NCBI GenBank assembly: GCA_019009955.1 | Contig: CM032233.1 | Location: 95,985,001-96,049,000, forward strand | Reading direction: 5' to 3' | Origin: Riptortus pedestris | Taxonomy: Eukaryota > Arthropoda > Insecta > Hemiptera > Alydidae | DNA length: 64,000 bases | Part shown: piece after piece, positions 8,241 through 47,031 of the stretch | How positions within the stretch are numbered: the first letter of the stretch is position 1 | How the letters are laid out: each line of letters opens with the position of its first letter | The notes under the pieces: model-generated | Seen by the model: the letters and a program-made list of their open reading frames with translations, nothing else | What the model was told of the DNA's origin: nothing | The model's database searches: none | Made by a program: the position numbers and the translations under genes

Positions 8241-8385
8241 CTTACGATTGATCCTGTCAATTTGCCTGTTTTGGTTTTCTAATTCTGATCCCATGTCAAT
8301 GGCCATGTTTCGCAGGTTACCAATCATTGTGTTCACTTGAGACATATTTTCTTCCATTTCATCTTCTCTTGCATCATTAGTAATT
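8241..8385 (-). CDS. Snap25: SNAP-25 SN2 helix exon (residues 144-192)
   Basis: The 145-bp exon is phase 2 to 0, with acceptor TTTCCTTCAG and donor GTTAGTC. It begins [20 protein letters not shown] and ends [13 protein letters not shown]. It forms most of the second SNARE helix; the ionic-layer glutamine is Gln182, in the ENQNRQ stretch. Confidence 0.97.
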
Positions 8386-9685: not shown

Positions 9686-9814
9686 TTAGCAATGTATCCT
9701 CCCTGAGGACCAAGACCATTACGATCATCCATCACTCGTTGAGGTTGATTGTTCACTACTTTACCATCATCATTGCCCCTCCATGTTCCTTCATCTTCTT
9801 TAAATGATGCTCCC
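9686..9814 (-). CDS. Snap25: SNAP-25 linker exon (residues 101-144)
   Basis: The 129-bp exon is phase 2 to 2, with acceptor TTTTCTCAG and donor GTAAGT. It encodes the segment from GASFKEDEGTWRGNDDGK through VVNNQPQRVMDDRNGLG to GGYIA. This is the flexible linker between SN1 and SN2, and it keeps the conserved NNQPQRVMDDRNG block. It lies 1.3 kb upstream of the next exon. Confidence 0.97.
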
Positions 9815-20741: not shown

Positions 20742-20859
20742 TTGTTGCAGGGTAAGACGCATAGCCCACAGCACTTTTCCATTCCAGTTAAGTTTTTCTC
20801 TGCCTCCCGCATGTCAGCATTAATCTGATCCATGCCTTCTTCGATACGATCAAGTTGTT
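20742..20859 (-). CDS. Snap25: SNAP-25 exon with end of SN1 helix and cysteine cluster (residues 62-101)
   Basis: The 118-bp exon (phase 1 to 2) starts [20 protein letters not shown] and ends [12 protein letters not shown]. The donor is GTCAGT and the acceptor is TATCTAG. The 118-bp length and phases equal vertebrate exon 5, which exists there as alternative 5a/5b; I found only one version here. The four cysteines in CCGLCVLPC correspond to the palmitoylated membrane-anchoring cluster. The first codon is completed by the G contributed by whichever 49-bp exon is used. Confidence 0.97.
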
Positions 20860-27000: not shown

Positions 27001-27172
27001 GCCAAAATCAAAACAACAAGGCTTCATGATCCCCCCCCCCCTTTAATTCCCACATAATTCATTTTCCAAGAATTCTATGGATTTTGATATTAAATTTTAA
27101 AATGTCAAAAGAAACTTAAATTGCAACATGTAATTCAAATTTTTTTCAAGCTAAAGCACTTATTATAAATGA

Positions 27173-27390
27173 CCATAATACCCTATTAACATTCCTATCA
27201 TTAATAAATGTAGAGAATACTATTCACTAAAAACTAGAGGTAAGTTCAGGATCAATCAAATAGTGATCTAGTTAGAAAATACCATAATACCCTATTAACA
27301 TTCCTATCATTAATAAATGTAGAGAATACTATACACTAAAAACTAGAGGTAAGTTCAGGATCAATCAAATAGTGATCTAGTTATAAAATA
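27173..27390. repeat. Tandem duplication of a 109-bp unit
   Basis: CCATAATACCCTATTAACAT begins at 27173 and again at 27282. The two units are almost identical up to TGATCTAGTTA, which indicates a recent duplication. The unit shows no coding or known repeat signature. Confidence 0.95.
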
Positions 27391-29222: not shown

Positions 29223-29271
29223 CCCCTTGCTCATCCAACATGACAAGTGATCTCATTCCCACCTCGTGGCT
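29223..29271 (-). CDS. Snap25: SNAP-25 alternative exon, version 3
   Basis: The 49-bp exon encodes SHEVGMRSLVMLDEQG plus one base, phase 0 to 1, with acceptor TTGTAG and donor GTAAGACC. It is 10/16 identical to version 1. Its second half, VMLDEQG, equals the vertebrate SNAP-25 sequence. It keeps the layer residues (with Ser for Thr at 53) and the acidic pair Asp58/Glu59, but has His at 47. It lies only 512 bp downstream of version 2 and shares Val49 and Met56 with it, which suggests versions 2 and 3 are the more recent duplicates of each other. Confidence 0.9.
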
Positions 29272-29783
29272 CTACAACACAATACAAGCCTTTACATCAC
29301 CCCCAAATAGTATGCATGCTCAGATGTGCCTTATACCTGATGGAATTTGCTAATCAAAACTATTACAAGTAAATATAAACTTTCTCCCTCTCATTTTAAC
29401 CTACAATTAAAGTTTTGTATAAATGGGGGTAAATAAATTGAAATTTTTAGCACTTAATGATTGTTGTTATCCAGAAGTTAAGATAAATTAGATCATAAAA
29501 ATGAAAAACAAAACTCGGGTTAAGCTAAGAGGAAGAAAAATTACATGATATTAATCCCCAACTGACAGCGGTGAAATATTTACAATAATAAAAGACACAA
29601 TTAATTCACTTTCCATTAGCAAAAATGTTAAATAGGAATAAGGAAAAATTATTGAGAGTAAATAAAATAGATGTAAACAAACACCGTTGTTGTTCAAGAA
29701 GCAAGAAATAAGGTAAACAGGAAAAGTAGTAAACGAGAAATGTTAGTAACCACCACTGTCATATACAGATATACGGATCTTAC

Positions 29784-29832
29784 CGCCTTGACTTGCCAGC
29801 ATTGAGAGCGTTTTGCCACCGACTTCCTCACT
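29784..29832 (-). CDS. Snap25: SNAP-25 alternative exon, version 2 (divergent surface)
   Basis: The 49-bp exon encodes SEEVGGKTLSMLASQG plus one base, phase 0 to 1, with acceptor TTTATTAG and donor GTAAGATC. It is 8/16 identical to version 1 and 9/16 to version 3. All five core-layer positions (Ser46, Gly50, Thr53, Leu57, Gln60) are unchanged, while surface residues differ: Lys47 to Glu, Ile51 to Gly, Val55 to Ser, Asp58 to Ala and Asp59 to Ser. The open frame, exact length and exact phase argue against a dead copy. I cannot see expression evidence. Confidence 0.85.
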
Positions 29833-32800
29833 CTAATAAACAAAATTGCAGGAAATAACATGAGTAAAAAAAAAAAAATAAGGAAAAAGAAAAAAAATAC
29901 CTTCATGACCAAGCCAAAAGAGTACTATGTGTTCATGAATTAATGTGGTACCTCAAATCTGCATTTCAAGTTATTAAATGTAGTGGCCATTAGAAACTAG
30001 GGTTAAATTCAAAACAATTGGCCAAAGAAGAAATATTTTTAAATAAAAATTAGTTAATCTAAATTTTAAAATTTGTTAGTAAGTCAAAATCAATCATTTT
30101 GGCTCTAAAAAGTAAAATGAAAACAGCTTTTAATATTGACATTTTATTGTCAATTTCCTGAAGAGGTTAAATTTTTTGTAGCATATTAAACTTAACTATA
30201 TTATGTCTGCACAGGCATTAGAACTGTAGTTTACAAACACTCAAAAATTTAAAAAATCAGATTGTGGAAGTATCATAATTTTCAACATTTATTACAATTA
30301 AAACTTGTATTGCTTAAAGTCAATCAACCATTGTTCCCAATCTAATGTCAAAATATTATTTTGAGATGTCATATTACATACATTTATCTTGCGAGATGCT
30401 TATTAATCAGATAATTCCCAACATAATTAATAGAGTGTGTAATAGAGAAATTTAATAAGATGATCCAAATAATATAAGTGTCCCTATTTTTTCATATGTT
30501 AACTAATGGCAAAAGCGAGTGATAAACCAATATTTTCTCTGCAGGATATGCCTTACTATTGAAACAAATAGAAAATAAATTATACAACCATACTATCCCA
30601 AAAATAATCTAATAATTTAAATAAAATCAAAAATATGCATAAAAAAAGATACTATAAATCCCATTATTATTTTTTATTTATTGGAAACATAATGCTATAA
30701 ACATAGCAGATATGGAAAAAAATGCAATGTTACTTTAAAATAAATTAAAATTACTCGTAAATGTTTGGTTAAATTAATGAATTAAAATATCTGTTATTTA
30801 TTCTCCCATGATATAAACACATAGTTTATACTTTTTTGGCCAGGCATGGCTTGAAAAAATATGATGAAATATAAAACAATAAAATAAATAAATAAATAAC
30901 CAAAAACAAGAGGCACAATGCTGCTATGAATAATGTAGTGAAGTATATATGTCATGTTGACTTCAATGAACCTGTAAAGGTATATTTATTTTGGATGTTA
31001 TTATTAAAAAGTTATACAATTTTTAAAGTACATTCTTCTTTTAAAATTGTATAATCAAAATATGAATGTCAAAAATCTTTAGGTCTTTCAACAATAATTT
31101 AATTCTTAAATCCGTTTAAAAAAAAATTAAGCTAAGTAAAGGTAGAACTTATTGTTATACTAAAAACAATATTAATTAAAAAATAATTACAACTCTACAT
31201 ATTATTTTGAAATAAAGAAACATATCTTTCTTTTTAAATAAAATCCAAATTAAATATACAGGGTTTGAAGTGCATTTAATGTTTGGTTGCTATGTCAGTC
31301 AAGCTACATAGGAAACACAAATGAAAAGGAAAATGTATTTATATAAGAATGGTTTCTGTTTAATGTTTTTAAAAGTGTTAATTAGATGGCTTAATTATAC
31401 AGGTGATTGGGATTTTGTTTTTTTTTTTGCATCTGGATGCAAAGAAAAAAAAATATAACAAAAGAATAAAAAAGCTGTTTGCTTTGCTGAAAAGCTAAAT
31501 TAAACTACACATGAAAGTATTTCAAATAATAATTTTTGCTTCCATTCAAGAATACACGCACTACAATAGTAAAGTGTTTTGTTTGTTTCAAAAGAAAATG
31601 AATAAATATATTTTTACAAATATGTAAAAAATATTAAAACAATTGTAAGAAATGTTTATATTAATTGATGGGTATGTCAATATTATCCTTTTTAGGGATG
31701 CCAATTACAAATACTATAAAGTAAACATTTTTGATAAATGTATGATAAAAAAAATAGTGATATTACTAAGCCATGATTTATTGTTAAAAACTTATTACAT
31801 ACATAAAACATAATAACTTCATTCCTTTAGATAATGTCTATACTAATACAAAACAGATAACTATAAATTGTTAATTAATGGCTTTAGTTTAAAGGGTGGA
31901 TTGTAGGATTTTGTGTACAGGGTTGTGAATTGCTGAAAGCATCACCAACTGCAAATCACACTGACAGATTCACATGCAAAACACACAAAATTTCAGCATT
32001 AATGAATAAATATTTACAGTGATATGATGTTTCTTCCCCACTTAATTCCTACATGTTTGTACACTTTTGTACCTGTAACTTACCGTACGTGTGCACATGT
32101 ATAGGTGTGTATGTTAATGTGCCAGAGTGCACGCACAAGTTGTGCTTCAAGAGAATTGTTGTCCATGAATCTTGATACAAATCATTTCGTTCTTACAGCA
32201 TTTAAACATAACGTGTTCCGAACATAATCACACAAGTGATCTACACATTCATAAGTAGATGCAACTATGACACTTTATATCAAGGCATAAATCATATCTA
32301 TTCACAAAAGAATACAAACTGACACATAAGCACAGTTGGAATAAAAAATAATACTCTGCATATCTTACGTATTTTCTGCATATCTTGTTTTAAAAGTTCA
32401 TTTTCATAGAACAGTACAATATTAAGCTATTGTTACCATAATGTTTTTAAAAAATTAAAAGCAAAATCAGGTTTGTTTTTTAACTTTTAAAATAAAAAAA
32501 ATTGAACACCTATTCCTTTAGATCCATCATATGTCAGTTAAGCTAATAAAACCAAAATAAAGAAGCTATTTATTAGCAGAATTGGCATCCTACCTTTTTA
32601 TTTTATGTAAATATAATGTATTTTATGAATGTTTTAAAAATATAAATGATTAAGGAGCATACATAATTTGAACAAGGAAGTATAAAGAAATGCTAACCAT
32701 TTCTTTGAGTGCACGAGTGTAGGTGTGCAATCAAACTTGAAAATAAAATAGTGTCTTTGTGAAAACACACAATGTATAAATTAAAAAATAATAATAAATT

Positions 32801-34232
32801 AAAACTTATTTTAAAAAAATAATTAATTGTGATGAACACGTGTCACCCTCTTGCAGTGAGTTTAATATTAATGTCATTAAATAAATAATTTCTTTAAAGC
32901 TTAATGGAGAAAGAGGGGTTACACACCTATTTTCTTTGAATAGGTATTCACTATGAAACTAAGCAAAACTATAGTTTAGTGTAAAATTGAGAGAAATATA
33001 TACATATTTTTGCACAATAACTTTTCATTTTGGACTGCTTTAAAATGAGGTAAATCAGGATCAAGTAATACTCTGTATGTTGAATTTCATATATGACCAC
33101 TTGACAAATATGAAGTGAATTCAAATCTTGAAGTTATCTTTTTTATTCTTTTGAAAAAGAAATCATTACCATAGTTTCGATGATATTGCACTCTGGAAAA
33201 GTTTGTTTATAGTTGGAATTATTCTGTAATTGTATAGCTGATAACTAATAATATTCAGTTAACAAAAAAAAATTGGTTCAATATGACTTATATAATAATT
33301 TAGTTACAAATTATTCAATTTTGAAGTAAAGCATAAAAGCAATGTTTAAAATTGTACAAATTTTAAAATTAATTTCAAATTATGTTATTTTTTTTTATTT
33401 TTTTATTTATTAATTGACAATAAATTTGGAATATTTATATACAGAAACTAATCTGAATAAAAATGGCTTAACTTTGTTTCTCAGAAGCCTGAAATATGCC
33501 TATAACAATTAGTTTTTTTTATTTTTGAAAATTTTCAAACGAAATAACTCAGGTTAATGTATGTATGACATATTTAGCATTATCTTTAGATAAATACAGG
33601 ACATACATAATCTTAATAATTACTACCAACAAGTACTTGATTGATTAGGAAATACTAAAAAGCAAATGGTTATTACTCCTTTTATAACTTATTAAGAAGC
33701 TTCGTTTCTTATAAGGCAATATTAAAATTATTTTCCATGTTCAGAAAATTATACACAAAAAACTACAACTCACTGCCTAGTCTACGATCAAACACCCACA
33801 TGAGAGAACAAACACTATAAGTGATCCACTATGGTTGTAGAATCCAATTTCATTGGAAAAAAAATAAAAATTAATGAATAGTTATTATGCTAAAATATAA
33901 ATATATACAATATTATGGTCAGATCATTCTCAAATATTTACTGCAGTTGTAAATAGTACTGCAGTTGTGGATATTTATGCTCCTATTCATTAAAATATTT
34001 CCTACCTTATTATTATATGTGTGGTAATAATAAGTCTATAATAAAGTACATATAATAGAAATCAAAACTGAACAAACATGCACAAATATTAGTGTGATGA
34101 AATAAAAATATAAATAAAATAATGTAATGAATGTGGGTAAAGCAGAAATAGAACATTTTATTTTTTATTAATTTTTTTTTTTGTGTCTGAAGTCATGGAA
34201 GGTGTTTCTGTGGGTATGTGTATCTGACTCAC
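29833..34232 (-). other. SNAP-25 inter-cassette intron (4.4 kb)
   Basis: AT-rich sequence between alternative exon versions 1 and 2. I saw no transposon with defined ends and no extra 49-bp exon in it. The 512-bp spacer between versions 2 and 3 (29,272-29,783) also shows nothing else. Confidence 0.7.
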
Positions 34233-34281
34233 CTCCCTGATCATCAAGGGCAACCAGTGTTCTGATGCCTGCTTCCTTGCT
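34233..34281 (-). CDS. Snap25: SNAP-25 alternative exon, version 1 (residues 46-61 and first base of codon 62)
   Basis: The 49-bp exon encodes SKEAGIRTLVALDDQG plus the first base of Glu62. The acceptor is CATATAG and the donor is GTGAGTC; phase is 0 to 1. The peptide is the canonical insect sequence and keeps the layer residues Ser46, Gly50, Thr53, Leu57 and Gln60 (ionic zero layer). Gly50 is, as I recall, the residue changed in the Drosophila temperature-sensitive Snap25 allele. Lys47 and Asp58/Asp59 are retained; these correspond to rat K40, D51 and E52 of the synaptotagmin-binding face. This is the most upstream of the three versions. Confidence 0.96.
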
Positions 34282-40375: not shown

Positions 40376-42575
40376 TATTCCTGTTAAACATATTTGGGCC
40401 GACTAAATGAATTTCAATGGTTAACTACAGTTAATTACTAAAGTAAAACACAATACTGCTATAGTAAAAATAAATACAACAATAAATTTGCAGTGAGATT
40501 AAACATGCACTATGTATTAGGGCAGTTCGTTAAATCCAAAAATTAATGTTTTAGGAGTTTAAATAAAGGTACACATATTTTCTTTTCTACTTTACTTAAT
40601 CCCATATACAACTTAAAGATGAAACAATGTTTTTCAAAAGGAATTATTATTTTTCCCAGGTGGAAGGTTTAAATCACTTTTAACCCTTTTGAATTTTTAG
40701 GAGGTTATTGGACCAAATTTATAAAGGGAAAAATGGAAGTTCTCCATATGTTCAATAACGAGCATATTTTAAGATTCTAGAAAACTACTAACAAGTAGGA
40801 ACAGTTGATAGGACTTTCAGGATAGAGTCATTCAGGAAAATTGCCAACTGACTACTTCAAGCAAAAATCATTTAGTCATTGATATATGTCTAAATATTCA
40901 GAATTACATAAAAGAAGCAACTATTTAAATTACAAAATTTGAGATAGATATATACCCTAAAGTTGAGTTTAATTTGGACTTATCTTCGAGGGCATTATAT
41001 GCCATTGGCATTTAGTATAATCTTTAATATTTTTATATTAGAGAAGAATAATGTAATATTCAAAGGAATCTGGATAAAGATCCTCTTATTGTGTACATAG
41101 ATATCAGTAATTTAGCTGCAGACTCGGCAGCCAAGTACAAGAGATATAGCTACAAAAGTAAATATTTAGTTAGGCTGGCATAAAATTCCATAACTAAATA
41201 AGTTTCAGCATTTGCCAAGGTACAGGGTTTGATAATGTTTGGCTGCGAATTCCAGCCAAGTCAAATATTTTTTCCATATAGAAATATGATTAAGATGCAT
41301 GTCAGTCAATGATTTGGTGAGATAATACGTTTTTACCAAAATATGCTATAAATGTACAATCAAATATGATCTATTTAACAGATAGTGATCTTAACAATTC
41401 TTGTATAATATTAGTGTGCATTCTTATTATAAATTAATATTTATTTTCTTTAGCAAGCGGTATAAAAATAGTTTCCAAGTCCCCCACCCCCCCCCTTTGA
41501 GGATTATATTTCATACAGAAGACTTTTCATGCTACTTTACAAGCTCTGGCAGTAAAAATTGTAAGGTAGTAAGTGCCACATTTATAATTTTTTAATAAAT
41601 CAAATATAAAATATTTACAATAATCCCAATTAAGTTATAGTCATTGTGTAATAACTAAATTAAAGAACTTAATGCTTCCATGGGTAGGAATAGTCATTAA
41701 TAAAGGCTCTTATCAATATTTATTTATATAAATTTTAATAAAGAAATAGATATAAGGATGTATAAAATCCATATTATACACTTATTAAAAAGCTTTAGTC
41801 AAATTGTAACCATTTTTTAAATGTTAACAGAGAATGAAATAGACAGTTCTTTACAATTCAGTCATGGCTGTACTATGCCTAAACAATGTCATTTATGAAT
41901 AATAACAATCGCGAAAGACTTAAACTATATTTTTGTTATATCACCTTTAATATACCAAAAACTTTAGATTCTTAACCATTAAACCACACAATCACCTTTC
42001 AGGCTCTGTAGTTATTTAATAACTTTATTAAATTACTGTTTTTTTTTTAATCCTATATTTTATTTCTTGGACAAGATCAAATGGAGACTTAAGATCAATA
42101 AAGGTAAGGAACATGCAATGTCAATTAACACAGGTTATATTTATATTTCTAAGATATTTCTTATGGGAAACATATTCTATTGACAAATATGTTTTTACTT
42201 TTTTTTTTTTAATGGATGGAACACATCATCAATACTAAATATCATATAGTAGAAAAAACAAACAAAAAATAGAAATATCTGTTCTGGGTTAGGTTTCTAG
42301 GTTTGAAATTTGGATGTTCATCTCTGCTTTATGTTCTCACAAAAGGCTTTAATTACATATAAAATATAGGTGGATACAATTTTTATACTACAGGTGACCT
42401 CTCACCTGTAGTATAAAAATATTTCTTAAACATATTTCTAGACTTGGAGTAAACACTTTCATTTACGCTCTTATGTATTGGGGTTAAGATATTGCATGCC
42501 TAAACCTAAAGAAATCTAATGTAGGTAGGATGAAAAAATGTAGGCTACGCTTCCACTATAATAATTTAATAACAC

Positions 42576-42614
42576 GGCAAAGCGCTTTCGATGCTGTGCA
42601 TCATCGTCAGTGCC
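42576..42614 (-). ncRNA. Hammerhead-ribozyme-like motif, intact core (left arm)
   Basis: On the minus strand the order is: stem I strand GGCA, core CTGACGA, stem II GATGC-ACA-GCATC, core GAAA, palindromic AGCGCT as an ultra-short stem III, the U-H cleavage dinucleotide TT, then stem I strand TGCC. After one G-G mismatch, outer AACA pairs with TGTT. Ultra-short palindromic stem III, acting as a dimer, is known from Penelope-like hammerheads. The pair next to the core in stem II is U-C rather than Watson-Crick, so activity is not assured. Confidence 0.65.
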
Positions 42615-42760
42615 CTGTTGACACACACAATAATAGTTACAATTTTCTATAAAATATGTTAGGTACATATAACAAAAAACTTATTTTTCTTTGGACTAAA
42701 AACATATAAAATATTTATTATATTTTATAGAAAATTGTAACTATTATTGTGTGTCAACAG

Positions 42761-42799
42761 GGCACTGACGATGATGCACAGCATCAAAAGCGCTTTGCC
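42761..42799 (+). ncRNA. Hammerhead-like motif, core substitution (right arm)
   Basis: It has the same architecture as the left-arm motif, but the GAAA core reads AAAA: position 42786 is A where the left arm has G. This core G (G12 in standard numbering) is catalytic, so this copy is predicted inactive. Confidence 0.6.
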
Positions 42800-43068
42800 G
42801 TGTTATTAAATTATTATAGTGGAAGCGTAGCCTACATTTTTTCATCCTACCTACATTAGAAGTCACTTCCACCTGCCAGAATACCAACTCAGACTAAAGA
42901 AATCTCTTTTCATTACTTATTTCTCAGAAAATAACCTAGAAAATGGTAATATTCTTAGGCCAGGATATTTCTGACTCTTTAAGAGATTCTTTAGTTCAAT
43001 TCAATTATATAACATTAGTTTTTCATTTTAGCTAGTTTCTTTATCAACAGTAATTTGTCGGTTTGTTT

Positions 43069-46092: not shown

Positions 46093-46134
46093 CTCTTCAC
46101 AAAGGGAGAGCATTCGACGAGTACTTTCAAGAGA
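46093..46134 (-). CDS. Snap25: SNAP-25 second coding exon (residues 32-45)
   Basis: This 42-bp exon encodes SLESTRRMLSLCEE, phase 0 to phase 0, between acceptor TTACAG and donor GTGAGTG. The length and near-identical peptide (vertebrate SLESTRRMLQLVEE) match the corresponding vertebrate exon. It forms the N-terminal half of the SN1 helix. It is 798 bp from the first coding exon and 11.8 kb from the first of the alternative exons. Confidence 0.97.
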
Positions 46135-46932: not shown

Positions 46933-47031
46933 CTCATCTGTAACCTGTCCAGCTTTTAGTTGTAATTCCTGAAGCTCTGTTCGAGGGGGGCCAGGCTCGG
47001 CAGCAGTAGAAGTAGGGGCAGGCATTTTTAT
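46933..47031 (-). CDS. Snap25: SNAP-25 first coding exon (residues 1-31)
   Basis: The ATG is at 47025-47023. The 31 codons begin MPAPTSTAAEPGPP and end QLKAGQVTDE, followed by the donor GTACTC at 46932. An acceptor (TTTTTCCAG) ends at 47032, so only ATAAAA of 5' UTR lies in this exon and the rest must come from an upstream non-coding exon. The proline/alanine-rich start is typical of insect SNAP-25 and precedes the SN1 helix. The exon ends in phase 0. Confidence 0.96.

Follow-up and report, generated by a model that had tools for sequence, protein, structure and literature searches.

The stretch of DNA analysed here, referred to below as the window, comprises 64,000 nucleotides of the hemipteran insect Riptortus pedestris (C6:95985001-96049000 of its 1.08-Gb genome) and carries a SNAP-25 gene on the minus strand. 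Reading of the acceptors and donors, followed by assembly and translation of the exons, places the coding region at 47,031-7,785, where it spans 39 kb and encodes 212 amino acids (Table 1). One 49-bp exon of this gene, which encodes part of the first SNARE helix, is present in three versions, here called A, B and C. The triplication had been proposed from the sequence alone in an earlier annotation (the original prediction), and the borders, phases and peptides given there for the three minus-strand exons all proved correct when the sequence was read. The predicted SNAP-25 identity is likewise confirmed by a Pfam PF00835 match of 78.9 bits (cut-off 25), and the best protein match among those listed is Halyomorpha halys SNAP-25 isoform X1 (97%), which carries a B exon.

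Table 1. Coding exons of the SNAP-25 gene in the window, in order from the start codon.
Feature	Position	Strand	Basis and remarks
First coding exon	46933..47031	-	ATG at 47025; ends at the codon matching human E24; acceptor, donor and translation
42-bp constant exon, SLESTRRMLSLCEE	46093..46134	-	Ends at the codon matching human E38; translation
Alternative exon version A, 49 bp, SKEAGIRTLVALDDQG	34233..34281	-	Splice sites, frame and class comparison
Alternative exon version B, 49 bp, SEEVGGKTLSMLASQG	29784..29832	-	Fast-evolving class; K40, V48, D51 and E52 all replaced
Alternative exon version C, 49 bp, SHEVGMRSLVMLDEQG	29223..29271	-	Conserved class; K40 is the sole interface residue lost
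118-bp constant exon, counterpart of vertebrate exon 5	20742..20859	-	One copy seen; holds the E55 counterpart and the four-cysteine cluster
Constant exon, linker	9686..9814	-	Translation
Constant exon, second SNARE helix, D166 counterpart	8241..8385	-	Translation and alignment
Last coding exon with stop codon	7785..7847	-	Translation

Gene structure and reading frame

Each of the three versions has its own AG acceptor and GT donor, is entered in phase 0 and is left in phase 1. When all eight possible exon combinations were translated, inclusion of A, B or C alone gave 212 amino acids in each case. The other five combinations end after 62-74 amino acids (no exon, 68; A+B, 62; A+C, 74; B+C, 74; A+B+C, 62), so only single inclusion is productive, as had been predicted from the frame shift caused by using none or two of the exons. 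Inclusion of all three adds 147 bp, a length that is in frame, and yet a stop codon is met. The exons are homologous neighbours of equal length and phase, with their own splice sites and a frame that accepts one of them at a time, the pattern expected of a mutually exclusive cluster. No fourth version was seen in the window. The 118-bp exon that follows has one strong match only in the window (20859-20742), and the further prediction that the exon duplicated in vertebrates is single here, with the preceding exon triplicated, is upheld.

The introns of this region measure 11,811 (to A), 4,400 (A to B), 512 (B to C) and 8,363 bases (C to the 118-bp exon). Given the 4,400 bases between A and B, the exclusivity of these two versions is not explicable by close spacing. 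Human splice-donor variants c.72+1 and c.114+2 put exon borders at codons 24 and 38 (PMC10102358), and the first two coding exons of the window end exactly at the matching borders. The first helix aligns to SNAP-25 structures without gaps, with a counterpart of Q53 in A, B and C, and the linker sequence CCGLCVLPC is a predicted palmitoylation cluster.

Evidence that B and C are genuine exons

All open 49-bp stretches of the window that lie between an AG and a GT were scored by BLOSUM62 against A. The minus strand has 49 such stretches, with scores of 77, 51 and 33 for the three exons and -6 for the next best; the 48 stretches of the plus strand reach at most 0, and simulating the 25.2-kb intron 200 times with an order-3 Markov model gives at most 18. 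The G+C counts of A, B and C (26, 27 and 26 of 49) are attained by 0.34% of 24,680 intronic 49-mers. Versions B and C are far beyond chance, and a chance or pseudo-exon origin is rejected by simulation, by G+C content and by conservation.

Pairwise DNA identity among the three exons is 26-31 of 49. Third codon positions differ most in every pair, with differences at positions 1, 2 and 3 of 4, 2 and 12 for A-C, 5, 7 and 11 for A-B, and 6, 5 and 12 for B-C. A recent exon duplication was also considered and is rejected, since the introns that flank the three exons share no real similarity; the sole long flank match (288 nt) is the B-C intron common to both flanks, and the remainder are short AT-rich matches.

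Residues changed by exon choice

The 49-bp exon corresponds to residues 39-54 of human SNAP-25 in the first SNARE helix, and thus includes K40, V48, D51 and E52. At positions 40, 48, 51 and 52 the window's A reads K, V, D and D, its C reads H, V, D and E, and its B reads E, S, A and S. The counterparts of E55 and D166 are constant, being encoded outside the alternative exon. Version B retains S39, G43, T46, L50 and Q53, positions that we take to follow the spacing of SNARE layers around Q53. Residues R281, E295, Y338, R398 and R399 of the partner surface are intact in the synaptotagmin-1-like exons of this genome on C3, judged by comparison with the rat C2B sequence.

Published mutations show that these positions matter. 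The combined mutation K40A/D51A/E52A/E55A/D166A was designed to disrupt the primary interface with synaptotagmin-1 (PMC9811660), binding of C2B is impaired by D51A/E52A/E55A (PMC4878868), and genetic evidence from Drosophila is said to back the interface (PMC8164606). Human K40E, V48F and D166Y are disease variants of this interface that disturb evoked release and leave complex stability without significant change; spontaneous release is raised by V48F and D166Y and not by K40E (PMC10102358). Further along the same helix, I67 is assigned to layer +4 (PMC10911398).

Exon classes in other animals

Three protein searches returned 2593, 2706 and 505 matches, and the best 120 of each gave 244 distinct proteins; because these relatives are grouped into clusters at 90% identity, isoforms may be concealed. 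The 16-residue segment is readable in 242 of the 244, and a simple class rule, in which K40 and the DEQG ending are among the criteria, sorts them into 73 A, 145 B and 24 C. Named pancrustaceans contribute 21 A proteins with a single sequence among them, which is that of the window, together with 72 B (55 distinct), 20 C (7 distinct) and two unreadable proteins. The window's B segment, SEEVGGKTLSMLASQG, has no exact match among the 244 listed relatives, and a near match, SEDVGGKTLSMLANQG, occurs in Halyomorpha halys. Its C peptide is identical in Thrips palmi isoform X3. One partial protein from Choristoneura (P0212) has a segment, SEDAGMKTLVMLDEQG, that mixes B-like and C-like features.

A search of related arthropods had been proposed as a check on the triplication, and it recovered the same classes as separate isoforms in many of them. 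Classes A, B and C are spread over Pancrustacea, crustaceans as well as insects. Among the listed proteins, all three classes are present in Bacillus rossius and Copidosoma floridanum, on one contig in each, and in Cloeon dipterum. At least two classes are found in ten arthropod genera (Thrips, Cotesia, Bacillus, Anoplophora, Planococcus, Gryllus, Arctopsyche, Cloeon, Copidosoma and Sitodiplosis), although Cotesia stands for two species taken together, and the proteins from Gryllus are possibly paralogues, being placed on different contigs. The exon choice extends beyond arthropods to molluscs and others. Five mollusc genera (Pomacea, Babylonia, Patella, Physella and Mercenaria) have an A-like and a second version, of which that of Patella met the C rule and was reassigned by hand for the segment comparison. 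B-like segments were also found in a scorpion (P0216), the brachiopod Lingula (P0213), the starfish Acanthaster (P0219), the sea cucumber Apostichopus (P0242) and hemichordates (P0229, P0230 and P0232).

Two versions occur together in five of the 244 proteins, each time inside a longer gene-model protein, and the two unreadable proteins show none cleanly. In these five gene models (P0044, P0083, P0108, P0113 and P0116) A is followed by a B, C or B-like segment, which points to an upstream position of A in those genomes too, as in Riptortus. A different repeat is seen in the Timema tahoe gene model P0005, where a second copy of a 15-residue stretch follows the region of the 118-bp exon; the cause may be duplication of a later exon or an artefact of assembly.

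For all sixty proteins without an organism label (38 B, 19 A and 3 C), which represent arthropods as well as other phyla, tables checked by eye give source contigs no longer than 4,655 bases. Unbroken frames on contigs this short, set against a 39-kb gene, indicate that their source is most likely spliced RNA. Versions A, B and C are thus most likely expressed as spliced RNA in relatives, and from these relatives we infer that each is used in the RNA of Riptortus pedestris as well.

The classes differ in which residues they hold constant. In the 55 distinct B segments of named pancrustaceans, S39, G43 and T46 are each kept in 53, L50 in 51 and Q53 in all 55. At the interface positions of the same segments, K40 is kept in 1, V48 in 6, D51 in 14 (any acidic residue in 17) and an acidic residue at 52 in 5. 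The seven distinct pancrustacean C segments all have V48, D51 and E52, and none has K40. Entropy within the B class gives the same picture, with positions 40, 48, 51 and 52 among the most variable (1.86-3.43) and the core-spaced positions among the least (0-0.44), although the contrast is imperfect given that position 49 (1.92) is as variable as position 40. With its core positions fixed and its interface positions replaced, B appears to be a functional SNARE helix whose sensor face has been rewritten.

Other SNAP-25-like sequences in the genome

A protein search of the 1.08-Gb genome found no second close copy of SNAP-25, and a 30-base pattern from the C exon occurs once. The other genome matches are only distant frames, on C5 (28% identity) and C1 (36% and 28%), with one more at E = 8. 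The C5 match is a 266-amino-acid uninterrupted frame (C5:88645537-88646172, minus strand), without introns over the matched stretch, for which Pfam gives V-SNARE_C only and which we presume to resemble SNAP-29. The C1 frame (C1:622663-623631, minus strand) has 344 amino acids, is SNAP-25-like at both ends (36% and 28%) with repeats of the GEGKAEGAK type between them, and matches no Pfam family at E up to 0.001; it is possibly a diverged SNAP-25 relative.

Proposed function and alternative explanations

The explanation that we favour, with moderate confidence, is that the three mutually exclusive versions of the exon for residues 39-54 form a splicing switch that loosens the coupling of SNAP-25 to synaptotagmin. 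Each mRNA would carry one frame-compatible choice, with exclusivity enforced at least by the frame; transcripts with none, two or three of the exons would meet an early stop with several junctions downstream and would probably be targets of nonsense-mediated decay. The choice would alter the outward face of the helix and leave its core unchanged, and a change in synaptotagmin binding between the versions is predicted from the residues concerned. Version A, which retains the synaptotagmin-1 residues, would serve fast, clamped, calcium-triggered release, and C, which loses only K40 (to H), might be a tuned form. Version B would still build SNARE complexes with weak synaptotagmin-1 coupling, and might suit asynchronous release, neuropeptide secretion or secretion outside neurons, for which vertebrates partly employ SNAP-23.

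Several observations weigh against this proposal. The class rule uses K40 and DEQG, so the interface counts are partly circular, a difficulty that is much smaller for the core counts and for V48 within B. When the 16-residue segments were clustered without supervision, classes A, B and C did not emerge; the divergent B segments separated, and A, C and 37 conservative B segments fell together. The B versions of the mollusc group (13 distinct) keep V48 in 12, D51 in 13 and E52 in 4, and those of deuterostomes retain V48, D51 and E52 in three of three. As non-arthropod B-like versions keep D51 and mostly V48, full loss of the interface is an arthropod trait; the sea cucumber version has R at position 40. 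Finally, V48F and D166Y are not simple losses of synaptotagmin-1 coupling, as SNARE binding is gained in both (PMC10911398).

This last result would also fit a competitor that we judge rather unlikely, in which real alternative exons tune another property of the helix surface, such as the rate of SNARE assembly, the action of complexin, Munc18 or Munc13, recycling by alpha-SNAP/NSF or calcium-channel binding, with the synaptotagmin residues as bystanders. Positions 44, 45 and 49 differ among the classes as well, and a role of V48 in alpha-SNAP binding is predicted (PMC10102358). Against this, the window's B has substitutions at all four known synaptotagmin positions of the exon, which also rank among the most variable B residues while the core-spaced ones rank among the least, even if position 49 blurs that contrast.

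A further alternative, which we consider improbable as a full account, is that the exons reflect a choice of tissue and not of release mode, with A neuronal and B (or C) used in gut, gland or other tissues in a SNAP-23-like part, without strong biophysical consequence. The genome, with its SNAP-29-like and its odd repeat-rich frame, offers no second close SNAP-25 copy for such a part. In the fly, general secretion is served by a separate gene, Snap24, and S2 cells lack Snap25 expression (PMC11666571); human SNAP-23 has the B-like segment SQDAGIKTITMLDEQK. Tissue choice is compatible with the synaptotagmin switch, and the quick, patterned change of the B surface suggests more than a neutral choice of tissue. 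That B and/or C are decayed or unused copies, or only frame-shifting poison exons, is very improbable: B does vary widely among pancrustaceans, but the open frames, splice sites, coding-like G+C and third-position excess, the C peptide shared with Thrips palmi, the invariant Q53 of the B segments, and the single version carried by annotated isoforms and short cDNA-like contigs all argue against it.

Age of the exon choice

We tentatively propose, while regarding it as doubtful, that the A/B choice is as old as bilaterian animals, that vertebrates resolved it by gene duplication (SNAP-25 as A, SNAP-23 as B), and that arthropods added C while their B lost the synaptotagmin face. The B segments of the mollusc group have a mean score of 68.1 to deuterostome B and 65.1 to scorpion B, above the 57.3 to mollusc-group A, which favours one old split. 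Pancrustacean B scores 44.2 to mollusc-group B, barely above its 43.5 to fish A, and a separate origin of the mollusc and arthropod second versions is possible. The case for SNAP-23 as a descendant of B is weak, since the human segment scores at best 62 with a B-type and an A-type reaches 60.

Significance

Transmitter release is driven by three SNAREs, SNAP-25 among them, and the interface of SNAP-25 with synaptotagmin-1 is a central question in calcium-triggered fusion. The exon choice may be an ancient switch for the control of release that has been overlooked. If insects and molluscs swap the interface by splicing, they would provide natural variants that can be tested in living synapses in place of engineered mutants, and differences among fast, slow and neuropeptide release might be traceable to exon choice. 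Human SNAP25 disease variants K40E, G43R, V48F and L50S fall within the same 16 residues (PMC10102358). The temperature-sensitive G50E allele of the fly is placed in the second SNARE motif by a review (PMC8377282). By the numbering of Drosophila innubila, residue 50 is the glycine of the alternative exon in the first helix, and the allele may thus hit only one version, a point relevant to how fully the SNAP-25 studies in flies represent the protein.

Other features of the window

A repeat scan of the window found mostly simple-sequence arms. In the intron before exon A, an inverted repeat (42515-42627 and 42748-42860) has 113-nt arms that are 99% complementary and 120 nt apart, and resembles a hairpin or a small mobile element. 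A 109-nt tandem duplication (27163-27380) whose copies are 96% identical lies in the intron that follows exon C.

Comparison with known systems

Mutually exclusive exons are a known kind of arrangement, and the variants of this exon are already present among automatic NCBI isoforms; the triplicated 49-bp exon is described in no paper that we found. The study of Hatje and Kollmar (2013) is said to cover mutually exclusive exons in Drosophila and might list the SNAP-25 gene. The original prediction knew of no description in arthropods, which holds for papers, as no account of splice variants of this exon was found in the open-licence literature (main texts, without supplements), and fails for databases. 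The variants are not described in the accessible parts of PMC3303723, PMC3923563, PMC3228551, PMC5740500, PMC2581893, PMC11666571 and PMC2374702.

The database counterparts are the proteins named 'SNAP-25 isoform Xn' in arthropods and molluscs, which have the same exon classes at the same place, as in Halyomorpha halys X1 (B), Bacillus rossius X1, X2 and X3 (A, B and C) and Pomacea X6 and X5 (A and B). These are automatic names with no function attached, and the papers searched do not discuss them.

Vertebrate SNAP-25a and SNAP-25b belong to the same gene family and likewise use mutually exclusive versions (exons 5a and 5b) in the region of the first SNARE helix. The vertebrate exons differ in nine of 39 residues, and Torpedo and Drosophila are stated to have no exon 5 duplication (PMC2581893); the words 'exon 4' are absent from the accessible part of that paper. 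In Riptortus, by contrast, the preceding exon is triplicated and the 118-bp exon single, and different residues are changed. Human SNAP-23 and fly Snap24 are comparable as second SNAP-25-type proteins that serve less synchronous or general secretion (PMC10102358; PMC11666571), and SNAP-23 carries the B-like signature SQDAGIKT. These are separate genes, however, unlike the alternative exons of Riptortus, and SNAP-23 keeps D51 and E52. There is also a general likeness to arthropod clusters such as those of Dscam, Mhc and others, where homologous neighbouring exons of equal length and phase are used one at a time. Where the Dscam type relies on docking and selector RNA structure, the reading frame alone accounts so far for the exclusivity of the three exons in Riptortus.

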